In this document: positions 8,128 to 27,878 of the stretch, one piece after another
Numbering within the stretch: the stretch's first letter is position 1
Layout of the letters: the number at the start of each line of letters is the position of its first letter
From: a virus
Direction: 5' to 3' (one strand)
IMG/VR virus record: IMGVR_UViG_3300042731_004162
Coordinates: 1 to 28,759 of that record
Length of the DNA stretch: 28,759 nucleotides
Notes under the pieces: generated by a model
What the model was told of the DNA's origin: nothing
Seen by the model: the letters and a program-made list of their open reading frames with translations, nothing else
Database searches by the model: none
Program-made: the position numbers and the translations under genes

Positions 8128-8181
8128 CTAGCACCTAGCTGTTGAGAAACACCAGCCTAGCACCTAGCTGTTGAGAACACC
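8128..8181. repeat. Tandem 25/26-bp duplication over the capsid stop codon
   Basis: Two nearly identical copies lie at 8128-8153 and 8157-8181 (offset 29 bases), differing by one extra base. On the minus strand each contains CTCAACAGCTAG, that is the codons for L-N-S and the stop. The first copy read by ribosomes ends the capsid gene. The second copy lies in the -1 frame, so a one-base backward shift before the stop would add ten residues and end on the same FLNS tail. This looks like a replication-slippage duplication. Confidence 0.85.
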
Positions 8182-9099
8182 CGTGGTCTTTACGACCGAA
8201 TCCTCGACGGCGAAACGAGCATCGAAGCGAAGCGACATCACAATGATGAAAGTCCCCGCGCTGATGTCCATATCGGTCTGCACCTTGATCTTGCGCCATA
8301 CGCCGAGATAGATGTTTTTCGGGTGCGTGAAGAGCACGACCGTTTCGTCGCTCCCGCCGCCGAGATCCTCGGGCCACATCGGGATATCAACGATCTCTTT
8401 GCCCTTGTATTGCGGCTTCGCGTTCTCTACGATCTGCGCATCGCCGAGAGCGGTCCCGCGAGGAGCGAGGGAGTCGCTGTAATCGTCTTGCGCGTTGTGC
8501 GAAGTGAAGTATTTCATTTCGCCCATATCGTCGATGTACTCTTTCGGAAGCGCTCGCGTGGTCTGCTTCAAGATCGAACGATCGAGACGCGATCCACCGG
8601 CAACGACGGGGTGCGACGTTGCTTGCTTGATGATCCCATCGAGCTGTGCGAGGAGCGGATCAGCGCTGGTCGTGTCGCCACGAATGACGACCTTTTCAGC
8701 GTCGCGCCCCACGGCGTCAGCCGATCGGCCCATGATCGTGTTCTTGAGCCCTTGCCCCTCGATGTTGTCCTCGAGAACTTCGTCTGGAATTCGGATCTCT
8801 GCCTTGAAGAGTTGCGCATTCCACGTCTCTTTCCCGAGATCCGGCTTGCTGCGCTGCGCGACCGGCAGTGCTTCGCCGCTCACGCCCGGCTGCAAGACCT
8901 GGCCAGCGAATCGCAGATTTTCGAGAATCTGCGTTGGCGAATTGAGCGTGGTCACTGTGATCATGCCCGAGAGCTTCGCCTTGCGAATCGCTCGTTGCAG
9001 GAACTTCTTCGCCTGCGCTGGTTCGAGATAACCGCCATCGGTTTGAATGTCGGCAAGCGAGAGATCCGCTTTCTGCAAGATGGTTCTGTTAGGGGTCAT
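8164..9099 (-). CDS. Major capsid protein, HK97-like fold
   Basis: A 311-residue protein with pattern features of HK97-fold capsid proteins: an N-terminal helical arm (AQAKKFLQRAIRKAKLSGMI), a P-domain region with PDEVLEDNIEGQGLKNTIMG, then DAEKVVIRGDTTS and a region near residue 200 (MKYFTSHNAQDDYSDSLAPR) typical of siphovirus capsid proteins just before the A domain. The A domain ends with YLGVWRKIKVQTDMDISAG. The start at 9099 has CAGGAG at good spacing. The order scaffold, capsid, decoration is classical. No separate protease gene lies beside it; the XkdF domain is instead at the end of the 1529-residue protein. Confidence in the capsid role is high. Confidence 0.85.
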   Translation of the reverse strand: MTPNRTILQKADLSLADIQTDGGYLEPAQAKKFLQRAIRKAKLSGMITVTTLNSPTQILENLRFAGQVLQPGVSGEALPVAQRSKPDLGKETWNAQLFKAEIRIPDEVLEDNIEGQGLKNTIMGRSADAVGRDAEKVVIRGDTTSADPLLAQLDGIIKQATSHPVVAGGSRLDRSILKQTTRALPKEYIDDMGEMKYFTSHNAQDDYSDSLAPRGTALGDAQIVENAKPQYKGKEIVDIPMWPEDLGGGSDETVVLFTHPKNIYLGVWRKIKVQTDMDISAGTFIIVMSLRFDARFAVEDSVVKTTGVLNS

Positions 9100-9184: not shown

Positions 9185-10537
9185 CTACCAAGCATCAACG
9201 TCAGGGTCGTTCAAGTCGTGTTCCCACGACAACGGCTTGACGTTTTCGCCATCGTCACCCTTGGAAACTGGCACAAGGTTTGTGTCGGTTGGCGCATCGT
9301 CTCGATCTTTGATCGCGCCTTGAAGCTTTTCGATCTTCGCGTTTTGTTCGTCGATCGTCTTGCGAAGCTCGACCACTTGCGGATCGGGCTCGTCGTTTTT
9401 CTTCACTGGCTCGGGCTCTTCGCTCTTCTTCGTGGGCCACATGCTCTTGCGTTCTGCTTCGGGGATCATCTCCTCGAAGAGCTTGATCAACGCGTCAAGC
9501 GCGCCCTTGAATTTCTCTCGCCGCGCTCGTGAAAGTTGCTTCGTTCCCGCTTTCTCGGTCTTCTCTCGATCATCGTCGGTTTGCTCGGGCTCTTCGGTTT
9601 TCTTCGTCTTCGTTTTCGCAGCGGCAGTTGACATCAACACATCTTTCGCTTTCGAGATCATGCGCAAAGTTTCTTCATCGCACGGCTTGCCAGCGGAAAG
9701 TTTTCCGATGGCAACTTGCAAAAGCTTCGCTGCTTCAACAACTGATTCGCGCGTCGTATACCCTGGACTTGTGTTCTGTTCATCGGGCGCTGGCGCATCA
9801 GCTTTCACAAGCCCTAGCGCAGCTTCAACGCCCATCGCGATTTCATCAACCGCTTTGTTGATGTCACCGGGCAACGAACCCTCGCCCTCTTCGAGCCCCT
9901 TGACCTTCGTCACGAGCGCATCGATCTTGCTCTTCAACGCCGCAAGCGCTTTCGCCGCCGCTTGCGCATCAGCTTTCGACACGTCGCCGATCGTGTCGTC
10001 AATCGCTGGCTCATCTTCGCTCTTTGCTTTCGGGCTCGGATAGCGCGACGCAACGCCACGAAGAGCGGTCACGATCGCCTTGCCCTCGCCAAGCATTGGC
10101 GGGGGAATCATGCCCTTCATTTCTTTCAGCTTCGCGACAAGAGCATCGATCTTTTTCGCGCTGTCTTCGAGCATGCTCATCACAGCTTCTTTGACGCCCT
10201 TTGGTGTCGCCTTGTCCGCACCGTCGATCGTGTCGCCGCTTGGCTCGTTGTCGTCAGTGTTCACGTCGCCAGCGTCCACCGTGCCGAACGCGTCGCTTGC
10301 TCCCTTGTCAACGTCAGTCGTCAAGGTCCCGTCCTCTTGCTCGTAAACTTCTTCGCCAGTCGGCATTGTGTCGCCCTCCGTTTTGATCACTAGAAATCGG
10401 CGCTTGTTTGCTGCGCGATCAACCGTGCTGATTTCTTCGACTAGAAGATCCTGCAACCGCGTAACGAGTTGCGACACGCGATCTTCTTCGTCGCTTTCTT
10501 GTCTGTCTAGATCTTGGCCACTCATGATCGCGCTCAT
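9185..10537 (-). CDS. Scaffold-like protein with C-terminal WEHDLN motif
   Basis: A 450-residue acidic and helical protein lying directly before the capsid gene, where scaffolds belong. Residues about 34-52 (EEISTVDRAANKRRFLVIK) match a motif common in phage pre-capsid proteins (E-x-S-x-V-D-x-A-A-N), also often found next to prohead proteases. The middle alternates long helices (KGVKEAVMSMLEDSAKKIDA) with acidic linkers; a further coiled coil lies at about 395-420. The C-terminal WEHDLNDPDVDAW is nearly repeated in the acidic protein at 15202-15687. The ATG at 10537 lies just after the upstream stop, with little Shine-Dalgarno, so translation is probably coupled; a second in-frame ATG lies at 10525. 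Confidence 0.65.
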   Translation of the reverse strand: MSAIMSGQDLDRQESDEEDRVSQLVTRLQDLLVEEISTVDRAANKRRFLVIKTEGDTMPTGEEVYEQEDGTLTTDVDKGASDAFGTVDAGDVNTDDNEPSGDTIDGADKATPKGVKEAVMSMLEDSAKKIDALVAKLKEMKGMIPPPMLGEGKAIVTALRGVASRYPSPKAKSEDEPAIDDTIGDVSKADAQAAAKALAALKSKIDALVTKVKGLEEGEGSLPGDINKAVDEIAMGVEAALGLVKADAPAPDEQNTSPGYTTRESVVEAAKLLQVAIGKLSAGKPCDEETLRMISKAKDVLMSTAAAKTKTKKTEEPEQTDDDREKTEKAGTKQLSRARREKFKGALDALIKLFEEMIPEAERKSMWPTKKSEEPEPVKKNDEPDPQVVELRKTIDEQNAKIEKLQGAIKDRDDAPTDTNLVPVSKGDDGENVKPLSWEHDLNDPDVDAW

Positions 10538-10538
10538 T

Positions 10539-13500
10539 TCACGCAGAATTTTTACCTTGCGTCAATATTTTTCGCTCTGCAACACGTCGCGCGCTTCCGC
10601 CTATTGAAAGCCCCGTCAGCTTTCCCGCTTTGATAGAGCGCCATAACTGATCGTCTACTACGCGCATCGCCAATAGCCAAGTCCCGCGCCGCACGATCTG
10701 AACTTTTTCATCGGGCTTTATGTCCGCGGTGCCAACAACTTCGCCATCGGATCGCACAGCAAATTCTACGGGCGCGATGTATGATTCAAGAATCCGAAGC
10801 TTTGTTGATGGAACGATCCTGCGATGCATAAGACCAAGGTTTCGGTATTGCTCCATGAAAAGATGCGCGGCGCGCCGTATTTCATAAGCGCTGTAAATAT
10901 CGCCCTGCGAATCAGGATCAACCGGTGCGCCGTCGTCGCCGTCGTTTGGCTCGAGAACAATCCCGAGCACAAAGCGCTCTTCTTTTGTTTTCACGATCGG
11001 CATGCGCACGTCTAATGCGCGATCGATCATCTTTCGGATCTCGGTTTCCGTCGCCATGCGCTCAACGGTTTCGGCAGTCATTGGTCGCGTTTTGTCGTCG
11101 TGCGCTTGCTCAACCATTGGCGGTCCAAACCAGTGCACACGCCGCTTTTCATCGCGACGATCAACGGCAAGCTCGAAAACTTGCACGCGGATCACGTCAC
11201 CGATTTTTGCTTGTACGTTTGTGTTACCTGTGCGCCCGATCACTGTGTACAACTTGCCATCGATCTCGACCGTTTCGACATAACCATCGCTCTCTTTTAC
11301 AGGACCGACCGCGCAAGAATAAACGAACGTTTTGTCAGAACCCGAAACCTTGTCTTTCGCGTAAACGATCGCGTCAATTTGCCGCGTCGCTTTGACTTTC
11401 GCCCACGATTGCGGCTTTTCTCCGATCAAATATTTTGCATCGGGAAGCTTGAAAACCGCGCCCTCACTACCGGGAATTTTGCGCGCCCAATCAAACATGT
11501 GTCGCAAATCTTTTTGAGTCACGACGCGCTTTCTGTTCACGATCAGCAATCTATTGTTTGCTATTTTTTGTTTCCCGCCGAAAAACTTCGCAAGCGTTTT
11601 TTCGTGTTCTTTCTCTTCTTCGCTCGTTAGATCTTCGCCATCGCGAAACAGAACGCGAAAGACATTGATCGCCGCGCCCTTGTCCTCTTGCGGTTTACCT
11701 GTCGTGAAACGTGCGAGATCCGATCGGGCGCGTGGCTTGCCTTTCGCGTCGTATTCGAGCAACTCGCCATCAACGGTCCACGAACCGCTGACAGCTTCAA
11801 GCGCTTGCGCCAGCGACGGAAGCGAAACGCGTCGCTCATCTTTCGAGTCTTCAAAGAAAATAGAAACGCGCTCGCCCTTCGGTTTGCTTTCGTCTCGCGA
11901 CGCGATCACGCGGTATCCGTTGAACTTCGGCTCTACGTAAACACCCGCTTTGATCACGTCATCAATCGCCCACTTTTCGAGCAACAGATCGAGATCAAGA
12001 AACTCGCCGCCCGGCTTCATTGGCGTAAAACGCTTACCCGGCAACACCTTTGATCGCACCTTGCGCGTTGTTATCTTGCGCTCGATTTCTCGATGGTCTT
12101 CCGGCGCTTCGCCTGGTACGTACAGAAACGCCTTGCGCACGATGCGTTGATATTTTCCGTTGACGATCTTTACATTGTCGTCAGTGAAAAAACGCTCTTT
12201 GACCAACGCGTCGCGCGTTTCTTTCGCTTCTTTTTCTGTCTTCGCTTCCCAGTAACGAAACTCTTTCGGCGTTGCTGCTTCAAGCGTTTTCGGGATCGCC
12301 GAGATACCAAGCGGCGGCATGTGTTCGCGCCGTACTGTACGGGTTTTTAGGACGGTTGGAAGGTAGGTTTTTCCAAGATGCGCTTGCCAAAAAACTTCGC
12401 CCTCTGGCGTGCGTCGTCCTGCGTCTTGCTCGTCGTCGCTCCCGCCACGACCAACGAGCATGCGCAGGTAAAACGAGCCCTGCCACTGTTGATCGCCAGT
12501 CAAGAAAAACTCGTGAAAGCGAAGCAACTGCAAGCCCCACTCTACTTGTGGGCGAGCAACTGCGATCATTACACCCGTTTCGTTTGTCGTCGCGCCTACC
12601 TCGCCAGACTCAAAAACGCGACCCTCGATCCCTAGCCATACAAGCGGTTGGCGTGACTTTGGAGTGCCGCCCATATGCGACGGAGCTTTGATCGGCTTCA
12701 AGTATTTGTTGCCGTCAGTCGCCGAATAGCCAGCGTAAACAGCGCGCGCTTGCGCGACCGTGTTGATGTCTTCGACCACGCCCGGCTTGTTGGCGAAGAG
12801 CGTGAAGCCAACGAGATGATCGTTGATACGCGCTCGAAAGTCGAAGTGCGCAGACTTGCCTCGAGTGTGTAGTTGAATCACGCCCGGTCTCGATCCCGAT
12901 TGCTTCGGATAGTCCGCCAACGGATCGCCTTGCTTTTGCAACTCTGACATCTCGACGATCGTCCGCTGATCGTCTCGCGGCACAAGCGCCAGATCGTAAA
13001 GCTTCGCATGATCGGTAAACGGTCCACCCAATGATTCATCGTGAAACTGCGCGCGCTGTGAAAGCTCGGGTGGAAGTGCGCGCCCTAGCCGAAACTCGAT
13101 CACGCGTCGCAGTTTTTCATCAACCGGACCATGCACAAGTAGATCAATGTCGTTCTCTGTTTCGCCGGTATTTGCTAGCCCACCGACGATCGAGACAACG
13201 GGAGCACGAAGCAAGATCGGCTTCGCATAGTGGCGCACAACGTCGTTGAAAGCGATCCGCTTCCCTGTCTTTTCCCCGCTCGCATGCGTTGGCGCTGTCG
13301 CTCGTTTTTCTGCTCGCAGTCTTTCCGCTTCGCGCCATAACGCCGAATCGCGTTGAATATGAAAACCGCGTCTGTGCATTTCGCGAAACACGAAGAGCGC
13401 AGCGTTGATCAGGTCTTCGCGGTTCAATTCGCCCGCTGTGATCTTGTCGTTGTCTGCGAAGTTCGCCCCGTATAATTGGTGCAAACGCAGGTTGACCGAT

Positions 13501-15128
13501 CGAAGCTCACGATCGCTGACATGTCGCAGCGTGCCCGGCTCGATCTCGGCAACTCGAATTTTTTGGACCGTTTCTTCGTCGTCTGCTTTGCGCGTGCTTG
13601 GCTCGCTGGCGATGAAATAGCGCCGCGCTGTTTTGTCGCCGCCCGTGTTTGTTGCTTCGCGCAGCGCGAGAGAAAAGCGCCGACCGCGCACTGATGAAAG
13701 CGCTTTTGTCTGCGTATCAGTATCGCCGAATACCAACAAAAACGACCCCTTGATCCCGTTGACGACATCAGCAAGTTTTACGAGATCGAAAGTCGATCCA
13801 CCGGGTGCCCCGACCTCATCTTTCCATTCTCCCGGGTATGGCGGATCAATGAAAAAGAAAGTATCGGGAGCATCATACTTCGCAATCGTTTTCGCGTAAT
13901 CGGCGTGCTCGATTTTTACATTTTTCAAACGCTCACTAAACCGAGAAAGACGCTCAAACTGATAACGCATGCCGGTCTTGCTTGTTGAATATCCGCCCGC
14001 GCCAGCAAACATAAAACGGCGCAAAAAAAGAAACTTCCATACGCGTTCAACATCACTACTCGGAGAAAGTTTTTTTGCACGCTCGAAAGTTTCCTTGCTT
14101 GCAACCCAATCAAAACGAGCCAGCGCTTTTTCTTTTTCTGCGCTCCATTCCTTGATCCAGCGCATGACAAGCACAGCGTTTAGATCAAGATCGGCAATTA
14201 CTTCGCGCTCGCTTTTTTCTTTCGTGAACAGACACGACGCCGCGCCCATAAAAGTTTCAACGTAGGTTTTGTGCGCTGGAAACCTTCCCACAATCTTAGA
14301 CGCATACCGCGCCGATCCGCCGTACTGCGACCACGGACCGCTGCGCTTTTCGATGAGATCGATCATCGTCTCGGGCATCAACGTCCTGTACCGCTTGCCG
14401 TCAATCTCGATCTCGTGATCGTGCAACCCGCCGTATGTCGTGCGCGCGCCGCCCTCGTCTGCTTCGTGGAGATGATCGCCATCGTCAAGAGTGCCGACCG
14501 CTTTGCCGTCGGGTAGCTTGAATTCATGTTTGTGATTCCCGCTTAGCTCTTCGATGCCGTCATAATGTCCGTGCGATCCGTCACGCCCTGTCAACGCTAG
14601 CGTGCCATCGTCAAGCCTGATCACGTGCGTGTGTCCACCGTCTAGAACCCCCGCCCCTGCTCTGCCATCGCTCAAAACGTGCGCGTGCACGCCGCCGCCA
14701 GGAACAGATTTAGCCACGCGTTGACCGGCTTCCGCCGCGGCTTCCGACATTTCACCCACGAACACATTGAACGACTCGAGCCACTTCACGCCAGCGCGCA
14801 GCGGTTCGATCACGTTGTCGGGTGCTTTGCCGCGCTCCAATAACACGATCACTTTCTCGAGCGGTCCGCCAAGCTCACGCGCGATCACGCCTGCGCCGCG
14901 CTGGTCTGCTTTCAGAATAAGCTTGCTCGGGTCTATGGCGTCTAGGGCTTGGCGTAACTTGCGCGCGTTCTCGGGTGCTTCTCGCGCAAACGAGACGCTA
15001 TCGGTCGGGCCTTGCAAAAGTTCAAGCGTAGATTTCGACCAACGCTTGACGGCTGACTCTAACTCTGTCGCCAGCGCTTGCGCTTCGCGCAAAGCGTTTT
15101 CATCGGCTTTCGTGATCTCGATCTGCAT
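10539..15128 (-). CDS. 1529-residue fusion: Dam-like methyltransferase, NTase, LigD-like PE, DNA ligase, XkdF protease
   Basis: Domains in order. Residues 1-140: charged helices. 148-238: six H-x-H motifs (148-150, 166-168, 186-188, 199-201, 219-221, 236-238). 262-510: D12-class adenine methyltransferase, with GG at 270-271, FMGAAS 293-298 and DPPY 428-431. 526-590: a domain beginning LRHVSD and containing LRLHQLYG. 645-720: Pol-beta-fold nucleotidyltransferase, with VGG, then D660/D662 in NDIDLL and possibly D712. 748-892: LigD-like 3'-phosphoesterase with H754, H761, D763 and R765; the later conserved His-Tyr positions read Gln and Trp. 1050-1340: ATP-dependent DNA ligase with EPKFNGYR (K1068), DGE 1120-1122, EGAVFK 1222-1227, WAKVK 1242-1246 and an OB-like end. 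1376-1515: XkdF protease with H1435 and S1508. The gene lies immediately upstream of the scaffold gene. Motif-level support is strong for ligase, methyltransferase and XkdF, weaker for the others. Confidence 0.85.
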   Translation of the reverse strand: MQIEITKADENALREAQALATELESAVKRWSKSTLELLQGPTDSVSFAREAPENARKLRQALDAIDPSKLILKADQRGAGVIARELGGPLEKVIVLLERGKAPDNVIEPLRAGVKWLESFNVFVGEMSEAAAEAGQRVAKSVPGGGVHAHVLSDGRAGAGVLDGGHTHVIRLDDGTLALTGRDGSHGHYDGIEELSGNHKHEFKLPDGKAVGTLDDGDHLHEADEGGARTTYGGLHDHEIEIDGKRYRTLMPETMIDLIEKRSGPWSQYGGSARYASKIVGRFPAHKTYVETFMGAASCLFTKEKSEREVIADLDLNAVLVMRWIKEWSAEKEKALARFDWVASKETFERAKKLSPSSDVERVWKFLFLRRFMFAGAGGYSTSKTGMRYQFERLSRFSERLKNVKIEHADYAKTIAKYDAPDTFFFIDPPYPGEWKDEVGAPGGSTFDLVKLADVVNGIKGSFLLVFGDTDTQTKALSSVRGRRFSLALREATNTGGDKTARRYFIASEPSTRKADDEETVQKIRVAEIEPGTLRHVSDRELRSVNLRLHQLYGANFADNDKITAGELNREDLINAALFVFREMHRRGFHIQRDSALWREAERLRAEKRATAPTHASGEKTGKRIAFNDVVRHYAKPILLRAPVVSIVGGLANTGETENDIDLLVHGPVDEKLRRVIEFRLGRALPPELSQRAQFHDESLGGPFTDHAKLYDLALVPRDDQRTIVEMSELQKQGDPLADYPKQSGSRPGVIQLHTRGKSAHFDFRARINDHLVGFTLFANKPGVVEDINTVAQARAVYAGYSATDGNKYLKPIKAPSHMGGTPKSRQPLVWLGIEGRVFESGEVGATTNETGVMIAVARPQVEWGLQLLRFHEFFLTGDQQWQGSFYLRMLVGRGGSDDEQDAGRRTPEGEVFWQAHLGKTYLPTVLKTRTVRREHMPPLGISAIPKTLEAATPKEFRYWEAKTEKEAKETRDALVKERFFTDDNVKIVNGKYQRIVRKAFLYVPGEAPEDHREIERKITTRKVRSKVLPGKRFTPMKPGGEFLDLDLLLEKWAIDDVIKAGVYVEPKFNGYRVIASRDESKPKGERVSIFFEDSKDERRVSLPSLAQALEAVSGSWTVDGELLEYDAKGKPRARSDLARFTTGKPQEDKGAAINVFRVLFRDGEDLTSEEEKEHEKTLAKFFGGKQKIANNRLLIVNRKRVVTQKDLRHMFDWARKIPGSEGAVFKLPDAKYLIGEKPQSWAKVKATRQIDAIVYAKDKVSGSDKTFVYSCAVGPVKESDGYVETVEIDGKLYTVIGRTGNTNVQAKIGDVIRVQVFELAVDRRDEKRRVHWFGPPMVEQAHDDKTRPMTAETVERMATETEIRKMIDRALDVRMPIVKTKEERFVLGIVLEPNDGDDGAPVDPDSQGDIYSAYEIRRAAHLFMEQYRNLGLMHRRIVPSTKLRILESYIAPVEFAVRSDGEVVGTADIKPDEKVQIVRRGTWLLAMRVVDDQLWRSIKAGKLTGLSIGGSARRVAERKILTQGKNSA

Positions 15129-16193: not shown

Positions 16194-16232
16194 GAGCGGT
16201 AGGCGACCGACCACGTCTGCCGCTCTTTTTTT
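16194..16232 (+). terminator. Rho-independent terminator facing against the late genes
   Basis: The stem GAGCGGTAGGC / GTCTGCCGCTC (16194-16204 with 16215-16225, two G-T wobbles) has a 10-base loop and is followed by a run of seven T (16226-16232) on the plus strand. On the minus strand the hairpin is followed by AAACCCC, so it would not terminate the late transcript. It ends just at the stop codon of the metalloprotease gene. All genes on both sides run leftward, so it would stop antisense, rightward transcription. Confidence 0.65.
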
Positions 16233-16821
16233 ATTCGAGCAACAACTCTCGATCGTGCTCCGTCAACTCGCAACCTTCAAACGTAGGGCTCGACATACAC
16301 GAGTTTAGATCGATCGAGCGCGGATCGTCAGCGAGCCCCAAGCAATGACCTAGCTCATGGATCAACGTCGTGAAAACCGTTTCTTCGTGATATGCGATTT
16401 CGTAATCGACAAGAACATCGCACGCTACAATTTCCCCGTCATGGTCTAGTAAAAGCGCTTTGCCGTTCGGATCAGGTTCGTCAAGCTCGATCCAATCTGT
16501 TCCGCCGCCTGGTATCGCTTCAACGCTCGCCATGATTACACCGTGCCGCTCTTCGGGAGCGTCAAGCCATAGCTCATCAAACGCGCTGTTATCCACGCCG
16601 CCCTCGAAAAGAACACCAACACCTTGACCATTCCACCAATTGATCGCGCGCTCAACAACGCCGTCATGTTCGAACGAATCATCGGCAACTATCTGCCACG
16701 GAAGATCCGCGGGCCTAAGCTCGATCCCTTCGTCGTTTGTCTGTCGACCGTTATCCGTCACAAGCGGGTCACAAGACGAAGCAAGACAGAAGAGAGCACA
16801 AAACGCGATGAAACGCTGCAT
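16231..16821 (-). CDS. Lipoprotein metzincin zinc metalloprotease
   Basis: A 196-residue protein with a lipoprotein signal peptide (lipobox LASSC, acylated Cys17) followed by Asp at +2, which in enterics retains lipoproteins in the inner membrane. The zinc-binding motif is HELGHCLGLAD (H155, E156, H159, D165), that is HExxHxxGxxD with Asp as third ligand, as in snapalysin-type metzincins. A Met-turn candidate (SCMSS, Met176) follows at typical spacing, as does an LTEHDRELLLE helix. It lies between the MuF-type gene and the small basic gene, in the same operon; its Shine-Dalgarno GGAGG is inside the end of the MuF gene. A protease targeted to the envelope is unusual among head genes. A host-modifying (moron-like) or virion-associated role are both possible. 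Confidence 0.8.
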   Translation of the reverse strand: MQRFIAFCALFCLASSCDPLVTDNGRQTNDEGIELRPADLPWQIVADDSFEHDGVVERAINWWNGQGVGVLFEGGVDNSAFDELWLDAPEERHGVIMASVEAIPGGGTDWIELDEPDPNGKALLLDHDGEIVACDVLVDYEIAYHEETVFTTLIHELGHCLGLADDPRSIDLNSCMSSPTFEGCELTEHDRELLLE

Positions 16822-16824
16822 TTT

Positions 16825-18093
16825 CTAAACCTCCGCCGCAATCGTCGTGCGGCAATTATGGTGATATGGTGGGAACCCTACAGCGGTTGAAACCATCTGT
16901 TGCCCCGATAAAACGTTGCTATACGAGCCCGGCGATCCTGTTCCTGCGCCGCGTTGATCGACTTGCGCGATCACGTTGCGCGTACCGTCGGGAAACTCTA
17001 CCGCTAGCTCGTCCCCTGCGTCGCTCACAAAAGGAGTGTGCCAATAAACGCCCTCGGGATTTGGGTCGTTGATCAATCTGTCTTGCAACGCCATAGCGCC
17101 ATCAATCGGCATCAGTCGATCGTGTAGCATCAAACACGTTTCGGTTGTTGCTTCGTCAAGCACAGCAGAGATCCGATAAAACCTGATCCCTGCAAGGCGC
17201 ATCGTCGCTCCCGCTGCATAGCTTCGCGCTCGCACGCTGGCGTTTGCTGCGACGGTTCGCCAATAGTGCGGCATCGATAAACCGCCCTTGATATGTTGTG
17301 ACAGAATTTTTTCGATGTCGCCGCGACCTAATCCCCTGTTTATTCCCGCTTCAATGATCGGTCGCGCTTGCGCTGCGAGCGTTGGCGAAATCGCGCCGTA
17401 TTGATTGCGCACGAAAAAACCATGGTGTTGTGAAAGACGCTGCGCGATTGCTCGATCGGGCAAACGAAGCGCCGCGCCTAACGTGTTGCGCACGCCTGGT
17501 AGTTTTGATGTCGCTGTGTTCGTGCGCCCAACAACGCCAGCGAGCGCACGCGACATTGACACGCGTTGCGCGAGCACCATGCCTGCCCGTGGCGATCGAT
17601 ATACTGTGCGCAAGCCTGCTTCGGTGCGCGCCCATTTTGCATCTGTTGCTTCGGGCCAAGACCAGTCAAGCCACTCCATCGCCTCGCGAGTCATATGCGC
17701 CGCTTCCTGCTTCGCTATGATCCCGAGTCGCCGCGAAAGTCGCGCGATGTCTTCGTCGAGTGCTTCGGGAGAAAACGGATTTGCCTTGTGCGTCTGAACC
17801 CTGCCAACGCTTCGCCAGACCGGAAGACCATCGCTGCAAAGTCCCGCGAGTGTGCCGATCACAACAGGGTCGCCCGTGCGCTCTGCGAGCGCTTGCGCCT
17901 TGCGTTGCACGTCGTCAAGCGTCACGCCATCGTAACGCGCGATCCTGCCCTCGCCAGCGTATGAAGCCACGACAACAAACGAGGTCGCCTTGCGTATCTT
18001 CGCGCCGATGATTTCTTGATCGCCAACAATGCGCAGCGGAGAGAGAGAAAAAAGCGCGCGCTGATCCGGCGCTAGCCAAGCAAAGTCATTCAT
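16825..18093 (-). CDS. MuF/SPP1 gp7-like minor head protein
   Basis: A 422-residue protein encoded directly after the portal gene, overlapping it by 8 bases (ATGAATGA). The C-terminal region has the MuF signature: helices with FYRISAVLDEATTETCLMLH and the closing GFPPYHHNCRTTIAAEV, which matches the P-P-x-H-x-x-C-R end of that family. The N-terminal 150 residues are mixed helix and strand, and the middle is helical with many Ala and Arg. In related phages the protein is injected or needed for infectivity and binds the portal. Portal plus MuF order is standard. No ADP-ribosyltransferase or nuclease motif is visible in the extra parts. Confidence 0.8.
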   Translation of the reverse strand: MNDFAWLAPDQRALFSLSPLRIVGDQEIIGAKIRKATSFVVVASYAGEGRIARYDGVTLDDVQRKAQALAERTGDPVVIGTLAGLCSDGLPVWRSVGRVQTHKANPFSPEALDEDIARLSRRLGIIAKQEAAHMTREAMEWLDWSWPEATDAKWARTEAGLRTVYRSPRAGMVLAQRVSMSRALAGVVGRTNTATSKLPGVRNTLGAALRLPDRAIAQRLSQHHGFFVRNQYGAISPTLAAQARPIIEAGINRGLGRGDIEKILSQHIKGGLSMPHYWRTVAANASVRARSYAAGATMRLAGIRFYRISAVLDEATTETCLMLHDRLMPIDGAMALQDRLINDPNPEGVYWHTPFVSDAGDELAVEFPDGTRNVIAQVDQRGAGTGSPGSYSNVLSGQQMVSTAVGFPPYHHNCRTTIAAEV

Positions 18094-19906
18094 TGGTATC
18101 GAAGAGCCGATCGAATTGCTCTTGCGAAATACTCATGCGCACTTCTTCGGGCTCTTCGACCGTCGTTGCTTCGTCGTTGTCTTCGTTGTCGGTTTCGCCA
18201 GTTGACGGATCGACGTTCGGAGCTTCGCCCTCTGGACGGAAACCAGCAAGCGCAAGGCGCAACGGCAAACGCGCCCAATCGGCTTCGACCTTCGGGAGAT
18301 CAACGCCTAGCACCCGCGACACAATTGGTCGCGCTTCGTCTGGTGTCATCAAGCCATCGCTTAGTTTTGTGAGCGTTTCAAGCAAGTCGATCGTGTTCTC
18401 GCTGTGCGGCGGTAACGACCGAAAACGCCATAGCGTGATCCCGAGATCGCGAAGCAATGTGCGATTGATCTCATAATCGAAATCTCTGCGCTCTGGTTCA
18501 AAAACTTGCTCTTCCGCGACTCTGATCGCCGCCAACGCCGTCGCCCGGTTGAAATCGTTTGTTTCGCCGCGCAGGATCGGGGGAACACGAAACGACTGAC
18601 CGATCTTCGCTCGGTTGTCTTTGTCGTATTGTCCCCAAAGTTGATCCTTGAATATCGCGTCAGTCAACGGCTTGATCTCGATCTTCACCGTGTTTTGTGA
18701 CGCCTGCCCGGATATCGGCGCAGCTTTGTTCGCGGCTTCCGCTTCCAAAATCAGAATGCGATGAAAGTTCTTTTTGCCCTTGATTTGGTCGCGTATGATC
18801 GTGCGCAACTCTTCTTTTGCGTCGCTTGCCAAACGCCCGCCTGAGATCAAAACAACAAGCGGCGGGATCGCTTTTGACTCGAAGAAAAGCAGGTTGATCT
18901 CTTCCATCTCGCGCGAACCGATTGCGCCGAGAACGCAACCTGACCAACGTATAAGCCCGTAAACGTCGCTCTCCGCGTTATCGAGATTGAACCAAAGAAG
19001 TTCGGTCGCGAGTCTGCCGCTAGGCTCTTCGCGTTTTAGATCTTGCACGCTCTTGTAAAACTTGCCCGTTGTCGCGCTGAGAATTCTCGGATCGCCATAC
19101 TCTTTGAAGTAGGTTTTTGTTCCCTCGTACACTTGAAGAAAACGACGAAACCGCAACCACTCTTTCCCGTCACGGACCGCGATATCAGAAACGCGGCGCT
19201 TGCATTCTGTCTCGACCACTTCGCCGTCAAGGGGCAACGCGCGCAGCGTCCACGCCTGCGCATAGTTCAACCGCGTTGGCTCGCCGCGCTTGTTGCGCAG
19301 CACTTCCCACGCCGCCCACCCTGTGCTTTCTTCGTCATGCCCTAGCTTCCGCCGCAAGCGAACAAACGAATATTTGCTAGACACGTTTGCAAAGAAATTT
19401 TCGATGCGCACGCGCTCGCGTCTCGCTTGCTCCCGCAGTGATTTGATCCGCGCTGTGATTTCTTCTTCGGTTGGGTCTTCGATCGGCTGTGGTTCGCGTC
19501 GCTGCCCGTCGTCAAGTTCATCAACCGCGTCAAGCTCCGCTTTGTATTCGCGCTCGATCAACATCGCAACGCGTATGCGTTCCCGCGCTTCTTTCGACTC
19601 GAGATCAACGACCGGCTCGAGAGTGTGACCGCCGCCGTGCACGTTGTGCACAAGCGCATCAATGTTCTGGCGCAACGCGTTTGACACGGACACAAGACGG
19701 ACCAAAGACACGGGATCAAGCGGCGGGTCTATGGCGTTCGCTCCCTCGAAAATCGCGGTCTGTTGCTTGTCGGTTTCGGTGAGGTTTGAACGCGGCGCAA
19801 CCTCGTTTTCAGTGCTGATCAATCGCGCCTTGAACGTGACTTCTCGGTCTTCGTCGTCAGCATTGATCCCGGTTACGATGATCGCTCTGTCTTCGGCTGC
19901 GCTCAT
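18086..19906 (-). CDS. Portal protein, PBSX family
   Basis: A 606-residue protein. The start at the ATG at 19906 overlaps the preceding stop (ATGA); a GTG at 19912 is a less likely start. Features of PBSX-type portals include YFKEYGDPRILSATTG near the wing, a tryptophan-rich strand (LLWFNLDNAESDVYGLIRWSG), then INLLFFESKAIPPLVVLISGG followed by a helix and GKKNFHRILILE. The clip/stem region follows (FKDQLWGQYDKDNRAKIGQS, VPPILRGE). An acidic tail (about 560-606) ends RLFDTNE. Portals form the dodecameric ring at the capsid vertex. No terminase lies before it, which is uncommon; small and lysis genes do instead. Confidence is high. Confidence 0.85.
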   Translation of the reverse strand: MSAAEDRAIIVTGINADDEDREVTFKARLISTENEVAPRSNLTETDKQQTAIFEGANAIDPPLDPVSLVRLVSVSNALRQNIDALVHNVHGGGHTLEPVVDLESKEARERIRVAMLIEREYKAELDAVDELDDGQRREPQPIEDPTEEEITARIKSLREQARRERVRIENFFANVSSKYSFVRLRRKLGHDEESTGWAAWEVLRNKRGEPTRLNYAQAWTLRALPLDGEVVETECKRRVSDIAVRDGKEWLRFRRFLQVYEGTKTYFKEYGDPRILSATTGKFYKSVQDLKREEPSGRLATELLWFNLDNAESDVYGLIRWSGCVLGAIGSREMEEINLLFFESKAIPPLVVLISGGRLASDAKEELRTIIRDQIKGKKNFHRILILEAEAANKAAPISGQASQNTVKIEIKPLTDAIFKDQLWGQYDKDNRAKIGQSFRVPPILRGETNDFNRATALAAIRVAEEQVFEPERRDFDYEINRTLLRDLGITLWRFRSLPPHSENTIDLLETLTKLSDGLMTPDEARPIVSRVLGVDLPKVEADWARLPLRLALAGFRPEGEAPNVDPSTGETDNEDNDEATTVEEPEEVRMSISQEQFDRLFDTNE

Positions 19907-20178
19907 AACCACGCTCTGATCGAAACCGTCGCGGTCGTTCCCTTGACCGACAATTTCGAGATGCCCTCTGTGTTGTAAAAACCAAGCTCGACCGGATAAG
20001 TCGCAGTGTCCCGCGGCTGTGGTGAAAGCTTCGCGTGCGTGTCCGCCGCATTGAAGCTAATCTCAGCGACTCCCGCGCCCGCGATATGCACTATCTCAAC
20101 GTGACGCGCACTGAAAGGGAATTGAATCACGTTGGAGAAATTGGCGATCCCTGTAACTTCCTGGTAGAAAACTTCCAT
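19903..20178 (-). CDS. Small beta-sandwich protein before the portal
   Basis: The start is taken at the ATG at 20178, with GGGTGAGGG just before it; a GTG at 20187 inside the previous gene's end is less likely. The product has 91 residues. It is almost all beta: VEIVHIAGAGVAEISFNA, then LSPQPRDTATYPVELGF and a final VKGTTATVSIRAW. It resembles small phage proteins of a beta-sandwich kind used as decorations or fibre bases. It overlaps the portal gene by 4 bases. I do not recognise the family, and the function is not known. Confidence 0.6.
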   Translation of the reverse strand: MEVFYQEVTGIANFSNVIQFPFSARHVEIVHIAGAGVAEISFNAADTHAKLSPQPRDTATYPVELGFYNTEGISKLSVKGTTATVSIRAWL

Positions 20179-25199: not shown

Positions 25200-25640
25200 A
25201 CAAGCGCAGATCCGGGCACCTTTCAGCACACGCGCGCACCTTGCGGTCATTTTCTGCACTCGAGATCACACGCTCTTACCTGTACCCTCATGCGCCCCCA
25301 TTCAAGCACACGCACTCACATTGCCTACACGTGCGCACATTGCCTACACGCACACACCTTGCTTACACATGGACACACTGGCGCACTTTGGGGCACGGTA
25401 CACACACGCAACCACCTTGCCTACACGTGCGCACCTTGCACACACTGGCGCACCTTGCCCACACAACACCCACACGTGCGCACCTTGCCTACATGTAGGA
25501 CACGGGAGCACAACACCCACACGTGCGCACCTTGCACACACGCAACCACTTCGGCGCACTCGCTCTCACATATCGGCACACATGCGCACTTGGGGCGACA
25601 TCGCGTTACACGCCCGCACGTTTCAGCACTCGAGAGCACA
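25200..25640. repeat. Degenerate tandem array of about 48-bp units with CACGTGCGCACCTTGC core
   Basis: The core CACGTGCGCACCTTGC occurs at 25424-25439, 25473-25488 and 25520-25535, with one mismatch at 25328-25343 and a degenerate copy at 25376-25391 (CACTGGCGCACTTTGG). Start-to-start distances are 48, 48, 49 and 47 bases. The array edges (about 25200 and 25640) are diffuse, made of looser CAC/GCAC units. The plus strand is strongly C/A-rich over the whole stretch. All six frames are partly open here because of low complexity, so no gene is called. A replication origin, packaging or partition-like site, or a multi-site operator region are the options. Confidence 0.75.
25488..25499. promoter_or_regulatory. 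Perfect palindrome CCTACATGTAGG inside the array
   Basis: CCTACATGTAGG is self-complementary and carries the same ACATGT core as the sites at 25069, 25763 and 25796. It abuts the third full copy of the array core. Confidence 0.5.
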
Positions 25641-25807: not shown

Positions 25808-26293
25808 TGCGAGTAGTCAAAAACGGCTGCAAGTGCTTGAAATCTAAGCCTTCTTTCGGAAGCGCCGAAAAGGTACTAGAGCATGCGCCGATTTTTCTGC
25901 GTTTCTAGGGGCATTCTAGCGCCAAGAATCGCTATGTGAGTTTTTTGCAACACACGCACCGTTTTTGATTGCCTTGCATGTGTCGCGCCAAAAAGATACT
26001 TTGCGCGTAATTTGCCGAACATACTGAGCTTTTCGGAAATTCTGGCGAAATCCGCCAACTTGCCGAAAATGCGGCGCGGGAGCAAGCGAAATCGATGTTC
26101 ATATCGCGCGTGATCGTCGTGCGCGGGTGCACGCGTCCAGGAAAACCATCATCGTTTACAGTCAAACGTCTATATATAAAGGGAAGCCAACGAAACCGGG
26201 CGATCTGCACGAGATCACACCAAATAACGCGCCGAAATTATTGCGCTTTTTCAGAACCGCCGAAATTATTTTTGCGGCGTGTGCGTTTTTTCT
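25808..26293. other. Non-coding stretch before the first rightward promoter
   Basis: I see no credible gene here. It holds a bulged stem (25849-25859 with 25865-25873), an A/T-rich TATATATAAAG near 26170 that lacks a good -35 partner, and two exact direct repeats GCCGAAATTATT at 26231-26242 and 26259-26270 (28 bases apart) just upstream of the first promoter cassette. Those repeats could be an operator for that promoter. GATC is absent from the stretch until 26111. Confidence 0.5.
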
Positions 26294-26323
26294 TTGACGC
26301 TGTCTCGTTTTTCGCGCTATTCT
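26294..26323 (+). promoter_or_regulatory. Promoter of cassette copy 1
   Basis: TTGACG (26294-26299), an 18-base spacer and TATTCT (26318-26323) make a sigma-70-type promoter. The spacer end CTCGTTTTTCGCGC and the downstream GTCAGCGCAACTCAGCACGG are nearly identical in the other two copies. The leader runs to AAAGGGAG and the ATG at 26365. Confidence 0.7.
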
Positions 26324-26364
26324 GTAACTGTCAGCGCAACTCAGCACGGAAAGGGAGATACAAA

Positions 26365-26710: not shown

Positions 26711-26905
26711 ATGAATACATGTGAGCATTGCTGCAAACCGCTGAACGATCATGAAGCTATCACTTGCGACGCGTGCGCGATAGCACAGCTAGAGCGCATA
26801 TTGTCAAGCAAAGCTTGGCTAAAGGTTCGCGGGCCTTACATAGAAAAAGCGTTGCGTGAGGAGCTTGCAACGCTGCGAGCGCGCCGCGACATCTTTGGCG
26901 AGTAG
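26711..26905 (+). CDS. Small zinc-ribbon protein
   Basis: A 64-residue protein with an N-terminal zinc knuckle: C-x-x-C (CEHC) at 4-7 and a second pair (CDAC) at 19-22, the spacing of a small treble-clef or ribbon. The C-terminal half is helical and basic (LKVRGPYIEKALREELATLR). The ATG follows AGAAAGG, 13 bases after the stop of the first gene, so the two form a small operon. Small zinc proteins of this kind in phages often bind DNA or host regulators; nothing more specific can be said. Confidence 0.6.
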   Translation: MNTCEHCCKPLNDHEAITCDACAIAQLERILSSKAWLKVRGPYIEKALREELATLRARRDIFGE

Positions 26906-26984
26906 AGATCGCACAAAAAACCAGAAACATTTCAAGCGCGTACAGATTTCAGCAAAAAAACTTTCGGCGCGGTTCGTTTTTTTC

Positions 26985-27014
26985 GTGACATTGTTTCGTT
27001 TTTCGCGCTATTCT
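26985..27014 (+). promoter_or_regulatory. Promoter of cassette copy 2
   Basis: GTGACA (26985-26990), an 18-base spacer and TATTCT (27009-27014). The downstream GTCAGCGCAACTCAGCACGG is identical to copy 1. The similarity with copy 3 extends upstream to about 26907, including AAACATTTCA and a CGCRTACAG block. Confidence 0.7.
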
Positions 27015-27050
27015 TATCTTGTCAGCGCAACTCAGCACGGGAGAAACGAA

Positions 27051-27331: not shown

Positions 27332-27730
27332 ATGAAAAAGCTCACAAAAGCATCAGCAAAAGCAATTGACGCGATGATCGACGGGATCGCGGTTGGCGAC
27401 GCTCGCACGATCGACAACAAGACCGGCTTCATGGCGGTTCACGTCGATCGACTCTCGCGAAACTGCTACTCGATCGCCCACTATTACGAGCAAAACGGTG
27501 ATCTCGTGCCCGATCCCGATCTCGTCGTTTGGCGCGCCGAGACCGGCGACTATGTTCCCGTTTCGCTTCAACTCAGCTCTGGCCATTATTCGCTGGCGCT
27601 TCGACTCGAGAACGATCAACCCGTAGCTTTCGCGCCCGCGCTTTGCCGGGAGCTTGCCAGCTTCGCGAATATGATGGTCAAGAACATCAAGGCGCAGCAA
27701 GGCGGTCTTGCCGGTCTTCGCCGCAAGTAA
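27332..27730 (+). CDS. DUF6908-like early protein
   Basis: A 132-residue protein. The N-terminus is helical (KASAKAIDAMIDGIAVGDAR), the middle holds a beta region with SIAHYYEQNGDLVPDPDLVV and a C-terminal helix ends NIKAQQGG. The AHYYEQNGDLVPDPD stretch and the closing N-I-K-x-Q-Q-G resemble the DUF6908 pattern of phage and plasmid proteins. Ribosome site AGGAAAGGATCG precedes the ATG at 27332. Function of that family is not known to me. Confidence 0.55.
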   Translation: MKKLTKASAKAIDAMIDGIAVGDARTIDNKTGFMAVHVDRLSRNCYSIAHYYEQNGDLVPDPDLVVWRAETGDYVPVSLQLSSGHYSLALRLENDQPVAFAPALCRELASFANMMVKNIKAQQGGLAGLRRK

Positions 27731-27810
27731 GAGATCACCCCGAAACCTCCAAACATTTCACACGCATACAGCTTTCGCGAAAAAAAGTTTTCTCACGCGT
27801 CGCTTTTTTG

Positions 27811-27840
27811 GTGACATTGTCTCGTTTTTCGCGCTATTCT
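27811..27840 (+). promoter_or_regulatory. Promoter of cassette copy 3
   Basis: GTGACA (27811-27816), an 18-base spacer and TATTCT (27835-27840). The following GTCAGCGCAAC is identical to the other copies, with two changes after it (ACAGTACGAAAGG). The ATG of the next gene is at 27879. Confidence 0.7.
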
Positions 27841-27878
27841 TATCTTGTCAGCGCAACACAGTACGAAAGGGCGAGACA

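Follow-up and report, generated by a model that had tools for sequence, protein, structure and literature searches.

A prohead-protease gene extended into a putative DNA repair and methylation polyprotein in tailed viruses

We describe a viral prohead-protease gene that encodes, ahead of the protease, a DNA methyltransferase, a nucleotidyltransferase (NTase), a LigD-type 3'-phosphoesterase (PE) and an ATP-dependent DNA ligase. About 100 related virus contigs, including that of the archaeal virus ANMV-1, carry the NTase, PE and ligase toolset. The gene is called the kit here, and the IMG/VR record in which it lies (IMGVR_UViG_3300042731_004162; 28,759 bases, taken whole and probably a fragment of a genome) is called the window. 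On balance, we favor the explanation that a protease gene has grown into a packaged, self-cut repair and methylation polyprotein acting on phage DNA; from domain identities, conservation, synteny and the enrichment of a linker motif we infer cleavage, packaging, delivery and a DNA substrate.

Domain architecture of the kit protein

The kit frame starts with ATG and has no internal stop codons (Table 1). The initial annotation had claimed a single frame of 1529 residues containing all the enzymes named above; the frame itself, Pfam, family profiles, AlphaFold and Foldseek bear this out, and the positions it gave were right (DPPY at 428, NDIDLL at 659, H761-x-D763-x-R765, and ligase motifs around K1068, E1122, E1222, K1227 and K1244). 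Among the families it had named, MethyltransfD12, DNA_ligase_A_M and Peptidase_S78_2 were found in the window protein; LigD_N was not, though it is seen in relatives. With the reaction of the NTase left aside, there is very little doubt about the domain identities as assigned.

Table 1. Kit gene, its domains and predicted processing sites, and flanking head genes in the window
Feature	Coordinates	Strand	Basis
Polyprotein gene (kit)	10539..15128	(-)	Single open frame, 1529 aa; architecture recurs in many contigs
Predicted processing site K73, LILKADQ	14910..14912	(-)	Motif match
HxH-repeat region, residues 146-240	14409..14693	(-)	Six H-x-H repeats ~13-20 aa apart; YmaF-like, very weak (Pfam E 0.56)
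D12-class N6-adenine DNA methyltransferase, residues 266-468	13725..14333	(-)	DPPY at 428-431; Pfam MethyltransfD12 275-433, E 1e-13
Predicted processing site K514, RKADDE, methylase-domain X linker	13587..13589	(-)	KAD in linker
Small helical domain X, residues ~520-600	13329..13571	(-)	In relatives coincides with Pfam Pyr_excise (T4 endonuclease V family)
Pol-beta-superfamily nucleotidyltransferase (NTase), residues 612-727	12948..13295	(-)	GG(649-650)-x9-D660-I-D662
Predicted processing site K732, NTase-PE linker	12933..12935	(-)	LQKQGDP; KADDP or KQDDP in most relatives
LigD-type 3'-phosphoesterase (PE), residues 728-985	12174..12947	(-)	H754, H761, D763, R765; AF2 and Foldseek, conservation
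ATP-dependent DNA ligase, residues 1051-1350	11079..11978	(-)	Adenylation domain and OB-fold; putative nucleophile K1068
XkdF / Peptidase_S78_2 prohead protease, residues 1376-1520	10569..11003	(-)	Pfam 1380-1516, E 2e-19
Portal protein gene, upstream of kit	18086..19912	(-)	PHROG 12 E 6e-27
Mu F-like minor head protein gene, upstream of kit	16825..18093	(-)	Profile matches
Scaffold-like gene, next downstream of kit	9185..10537	(-)	Carries kit-linker motif at K52, K188, K245
HK97-fold major capsid protein, downstream	8164..9099	(-)	Pfam Phage_capsid E 2e-6; PHROG 1623 E 2e-82

The methylase combines the D12 profile match and a DPP[YW] motif with a match to TIGR00571 (dam; E = 3e-14), and its DPP is kept in 21 of 21 non-redundant relatives. 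In the ligase, motifs I to V are present, Pfam DNA_ligase_A_M covers residues 1055 to 1246 (E = 7e-16), an NCBIfam model matches too, and Foldseek retrieved archaeal DNA ligases (E = 2e-17), human LIG4 and mycobacterial LigD. K1068 is found in 55 and K1227 in all of 59 non-redundant relatives. In several members (loci L004/L005 and L008-L011), the ligase is shortened or degenerate; in L004, L008 and L010 it is cut down or lacks the adenylation lysine while the PE and NTase are intact, suggesting that the ligase is dispensable in some lineages. The protease residues H1435 and S1508 are invariant (29/29 non-redundant relatives). In the window protein, the Pfam matches of methylase, ligase and protease score above the cut-offs.

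The PE is not recognized by Pfam in the window protein, and a profile of 17 relatives searched against the PDB by sequence placed the LigD PE structures 3p4h and 3p43 first and third, not significantly. Pfam LigD_N matched in 9 of the 50 relatives' records, one of them above the cut-off. Since a first Foldseek run was dominated by ligase matches, a second AlphaFold model was built without the ligase (residues 505 to 985; mean pLDDT of 90.4). Its best seven PDB matches were all LigD PE structures (3p43, 3n9b twice, 3n9d, 3p4h, 5dmp and 2lj6), the best with an E value of 1.7e-5 and a probability of 1.00. Structure prediction thus led from the phosphoesterase to LigD phosphoesterases and from the ligase to DNA ligases, as the initial annotation would have it. 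The Mn-binding residues of Pseudomonas LigD, His42, His48 and Asp50, plus Arg52 (PMC8656161), correspond to H754, H761, D763 and R765 of the window PE; the first three are present in 68/68 and R765 in 67/68 non-redundant relatives. The kit PE differs from that of LigD in that the conserved His84 is absent (the position is variable), Trp replaces Tyr88, and a new H872-E873 pair, which is not LigD's, has appeared, with E873 nearly invariant.

The NTase has no Pfam match in the window protein. Its assignment is based on a GGx9DxD motif that 59 non-redundant relatives share, together with structural matches in Foldseek, which were weak only and led to minimal nucleotidyltransferases (MNT). By sequence, the best PDB matches of the NTase profile, also weak, were to the African swine fever virus (ASFV) enzyme PolX. 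G649 and D660-x-D662 are nearly invariant, and the third carboxylate is present in 34/59 relatives and missing in 25/59. The proposal that a Pol-beta-type NTase replaces the primase-type polymerase of LigD holds as far as the NTase motif and the lack of any AEP primase-type polymerase family at E<1 in the window protein (Pfam) are concerned; given the 25 members without the third carboxylate, "polymerase" would be too firm a term.

Domain X and the HxH-repeat region did not figure in the initial annotation. Inside kit proteins, Pyr_excise matches lie over domain X in 7 of 50 records, two above the cut-off; counted by domain, 7 of 29 X domains match, the best at 6e-9. The window's own X has no Pfam match. 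T4 endonuclease V relies on a catalytic Thr2, its N-terminal nucleophile, and on Glu23. Equivalents of Thr2 and Glu23 were not evident by eye in the X sequences read, and an X profile searched against the PDB did not retrieve endonuclease V; a role for X as an active UV glycosylase is unsupported and was set aside.

These observations bear on the idea of an ASFV-like packaged base-excision or UV-repair kit, in which X would find damage, the PE would clean 3' ends, the NTase would fill in and the ligase would seal. ASFV packages components of base-excision repair in its virions (PMC12172490), and PgVPolX, a fusion of polymerase, lyase and ligase, carries out viral base-excision repair (PMC5537341); the Pyr_excise matches and the weak resemblance of the NTase profile to ASFV PolX point the same way. 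We nevertheless consider this idea improbable, given the features of X just described and the 25 members that lack the third carboxylate. The precedents share with the kit repair enzymes in virions (ASFV) and a polymerase-ligase fusion (PgVPolX), but they belong to eukaryotic large DNA viruses and involve other enzyme families and no capsid-protease fusion.

The protein N-terminus looks helix rich. HxH repeats are also found near the N-terminus of other kit proteins (L004, L035, L039, L041 and L058); possibly they bind metal, perhaps serving the Mn-dependent phosphoesterase.

A family with a constant core

A single-sequence scan with the whole window protein found no relatives, its patterns being too specific. 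Domain alignments that included ANMV-1 opened the family, yielding 24 loci and then 114 candidates on viral contigs, of which 80 were kept. Since many contigs are near-duplicates, residue counts refer to a non-redundant set (80% identity), while synteny was counted per record.

HMM mapping distinguished three arrangements: the window type, in which X, NTase, PE, ligase and protease are fused in that order; the ANMV-1 type, NTase-ligase-PE with or without the protease; and a third in which NTase, PE and ligase are encoded by adjacent genes. That the trio stays together despite a permuted or split order argues for a joint function. Methylases come and go among members and are sometimes inserted within the PE; further domains include a metallo-beta-lactamase fold, LigT phosphoesterase, radical SAM, AdoMet decarboxylase and a second ligase. 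Active-site residues are almost invariant across the 21 to 69 non-redundant relatives available per domain, the exceptions being the third carboxylate of the NTase and the His84 equivalent of the PE. That the domains came together by chance or that the contig was wrongly assembled, for which only the unusual length could be cited, has a negligible probability: about 20 distinct contigs share the fused order, many more have it permuted, and the active sites are constrained.

Two kits stand out by their composition, one with two DNA ligase domains and another with three D12 methylases (L060, 6563-12304; L105, 7418-13576). A search of genome contigs with a narrow alignment found one locus, in a Myxococcales metagenome-assembled genome. 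On this 106-kb contig (JACPVI010000063.1; L105 and L107-L111), two kit genes and portals lie at opposite, outward-facing ends, and DISARM-like and DUF499/DUF1156 anti-phage genes lie between the two kits. A BFVD search gave a single match below 1e-3, a plasmid search gave one weak match only, to a cellular LigD ligase, and known phages showed no DNA-level similarity to the window.

The kit occupies the prohead-protease slot

Ordinary phages have a small XkdF protease between portal and capsid genes, and it is in this slot that the kit is found. A portal lies upstream in 36 of 37 records with a recognized portal and on the same strand in 36 of 37, with a median gap of 1.5 kb; in one record the portal is divergent, and the one record with a large gap fits circular permutation. 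Downstream, a capsid gene follows on the same strand in all 27 records in which one was recognized (median, 1.4 kb). The neighbors in the window and this synteny in relatives bear out the earlier placement of the gene at the site of the prohead protease, immediately ahead of the scaffold gene. We consider it highly likely that the kit is made in and for the head.

The XkdF genes of Rhizobium phage RHph_TM16 and Otagovirus phiPsa374 share the protease family and the slot between portal and scaffold or capsid, but their products are small (~150-350 aa). XkdF genes labeled "DNA methyltransferase" in cultured phages were considered as methylase-protease precedents and rejected, the genes opened being only 151-349 aa. 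Such labels (NC_023601.2 CF96_gp161; PHROG 1530) look like annotation errors, and the PHROG 1530 match in the window protein falls in the protease.

Elsewhere in the window, a small gene whose product is lipoprotein-like and weakly matches a matrixin/zincin HExxH (16231-16821, minus strand) separates the Mu F-like gene from the kit. A 136-nt leader-like sequence occurs in three copies (26213-26348, 26904-27039 and 27730-27865) with 60-100% identity to the reference copy. Each copy precedes a plus-strand gene, and the sequence may be a promoter or 5' leader repeated for the early genes. At 25308-25464, short 19-nt tandem repeats give rise to a spurious Thr/His/Cys-rich frame.

A motif shared by kit linkers, scaffolds and capsid proteins

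In protease-bearing members, the motif hydrophobic-x-K-A-[D/E] is enriched in the linkers between domains. K-A-D is their commonest linker tripeptide (31 occurrences versus 3-10 for permuted tripeptides), and matches to the pattern [LIVMFYA]-x-K-[AQTS]-[DEG] number 57 in linkers, versus 17 expected by shuffling (maximum of 30 in 200 shuffles), and 12 in the domain part, although the latter is larger. Leaving out the conserved NTase-PE site, the linker count is 51 versus 17.7 expected. By boundary, the motif is found in the NTase-PE linker of 16/21 proteins and in the ligase-protease linker of 11/21. In the window protein, the NTase-PE site reads K-Q-G, and the stretch ahead of the protease has no canonical site.

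The motif extends to other head proteins. It lies ~10-20 residues from the N-terminus in 17 of 20 capsid proteins (ILQKAD at residue 10 in the window), and its density is 5.8 per 1000 aa in scaffolds and 0.6 in portals. In RHph_TM16, whose XkdF-type protease is small and stands alone, the motif recurs at this position of the capsid protein, and the scaffold contains it eight times.

From this distribution, we read the motif as the recognition site of the attached protease, and it is probable that the chain is cut by its own protease into separate enzymes. The motif could instead be a docking signal; either way, it would tie the kit to the prohead. The earlier claim that the attached protease frees the enzymes gains indirect support from a K-A-[D/E] motif common to linkers, scaffolds and capsid N-termini. 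Archaeal-type members, mostly without a fused protease, show no enrichment, which indicates that processing is not universal. We found no description of the specificity of the XkdF prohead-protease family in open-access papers; in SPN3US, the prohead protease cuts internal head proteins at A-x-E (PMC10052503).

Relation to LigD and to polyvalent proteins

With bacterial LigD and the split archaeal NHEJ system (Pol, PE and Lig), the kit shares the PE fold and its Mn triad, an ATP-dependent ligase and the idea of an end-repair kit on one chain or in neighboring genes. It differs from both in having a Pol-beta NTase in place of AEP, no Ku, a fusion to a capsid protease and a location among head genes. 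Ku (PF02735) was found in none of the 50 relatives' records and not in the window (51 records, which may be fragments), which leaves no known way of holding two ends together. The proposal of an end-joining kit proper was thus not sustained: Ku is missing from these records, the polymerase is not AEP, and the NTase lacks the third carboxylate in 25/59 members. Given the lack of Ku and a polymerase that is not LigD's, the kit is not a LigD; it would work like a polyvalent polyprotein.

Polyvalent proteins, described in 2017, are large injected head proteins with several enzymes, methylases and Pol-beta NTases among them; in some, the C-terminus is an assemblin-like capsid protease, which was proposed to process them, and they were likened to viral polyproteins (PMC5512222). 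Like them, the kit has several disparate enzymatic domains in one chain and is coded among virion genes, but it has a constant core of NTase, LigD-type PE and DNA ligase. The suggestion that nothing like the kit had been described is therefore only partly right: polyvalent proteins with a C-terminal protease were published, while the ligase and PE cargo is not there (neither "LigD" nor "DNA ligase" appears in that text). We found no description of an NTase/PE/ligase repair cargo in the open-access literature, and two virion-proteomics papers (PMC3652863 and PMC9796965) contain nothing on such a kit. What is new is the constant core, how widely it is distributed among head modules, and the cleavage code predicted here.

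The kit gene of ANMV-1 (AJP62006.1; 866 aa, annotated "ATP-dependent DNA ligase") has three homologous core domains (E = 1e-29, 9e-22 and 6e-12) and directly follows a gene whose product reads like a portal protein; it differs in its NTase-ligase-PE order and in lacking the methylase and the fused protease. "DNA ligase" is not mentioned in the ANMV-1 paper (PMC4372165).

Proposed mechanism and alternatives

We propose that N-terminal growth turned a prohead-protease gene into one for a polyvalent polyprotein. As the head is assembled, the chain would enter the prohead, where the C-terminal XkdF-type protease would cut it at hydrophobic-x-K-A-[D/E] into a methylase, an NTase piece, a 3'-phosphoesterase and a DNA ligase. 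The pieces would remain beside the genome inside the capsid and go to work on phage DNA when it enters the cell or shortly earlier: the phosphoesterase would clean damaged or ribonucleotide 3' ends, the ligase would seal nicks or breaks, and the methylase would mark the DNA against restriction.

Whether the enzymes travel into the cell is, in our estimate, an even call. It is conceivable, though unlikely, that they act without ejection in the producing cell, where they would repair and methylate DNA at the prohead portal ahead of packaging or while it proceeds. The gene belongs to the late head module, packaging is impeded by nicks and breaks, and enzymes localized to the head would be in a good position where it takes place. 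However, being fused to a protease active within the prohead implies that the pieces are enclosed, and the nearest experimental parallel, the Dar proteins of P1, is co-ejected with DNA (PMC12810830). These head-internal proteins include a large adenine methylase protein and protect the DNA, and DarA is trimmed by the prohead protease (PMC12810830; PMC5512222); DarA and DarB differ from the kit in being encoded by separate genes, in having a SNF2 helicase instead of repair enzymes and in an unfused protease.

The phage's own DNA is the substrate that we think fits best. DNA is favored over RNA by the DNA-ligase fold with its OB domain, the adenine methylases in many members and the T4 endonuclease V-like domain in relatives. 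A live but weaker rival, to which we give little weight, is an RNA-repair kit in which NTase, end-healing PE and ligase would mend tRNAs cut by host anticodon nucleases. The functional trio of NTase, phosphoesterase and ligase is the same, jumbo phages have repair systems with an RNA ligase and an RlaP-type NTase (PMC7824862), one scanned member has LigT/2H phosphoesterase matches, and LigD phosphoesterases trim 3' ribonucleotides (PMC8656161). Against this, the ligase belongs to the DNA_ligase_A_M class and has archaeal, LIG4 and LigD DNA ligases as its best structural matches, no RlaP family is among the Pfam matches of the scanned kit proteins, and DNA adenine methylases are the commonest added domain.

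Returning to a packaged kit acting on phage DNA, we offer a wider proposal only tentatively: that bacterial and archaeal tailed viruses carry in their virions a Ku-free counterpart of LigD, a self-released set for DNA-end repair and methylation, encoded as an extension of the prohead protease, that mends and protects the entering genome, for example after restriction or CRISPR cutting. If this is true, a broad group of tailed viruses would deliver DNA repair with the genome, and not just anti-restriction or transcription functions, and a phage could survive nuclease cutting before any gene expression. RNA viruses release enzymes from polyproteins by a protease; here, the capsid-maturation protease would be the release mechanism. 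The hydrophobic-x-K-A-[D/E] motif would be a predicted cleavage code for the XkdF-type prohead-protease family, and the kit would provide a natural platform for loading enzymes into capsids.
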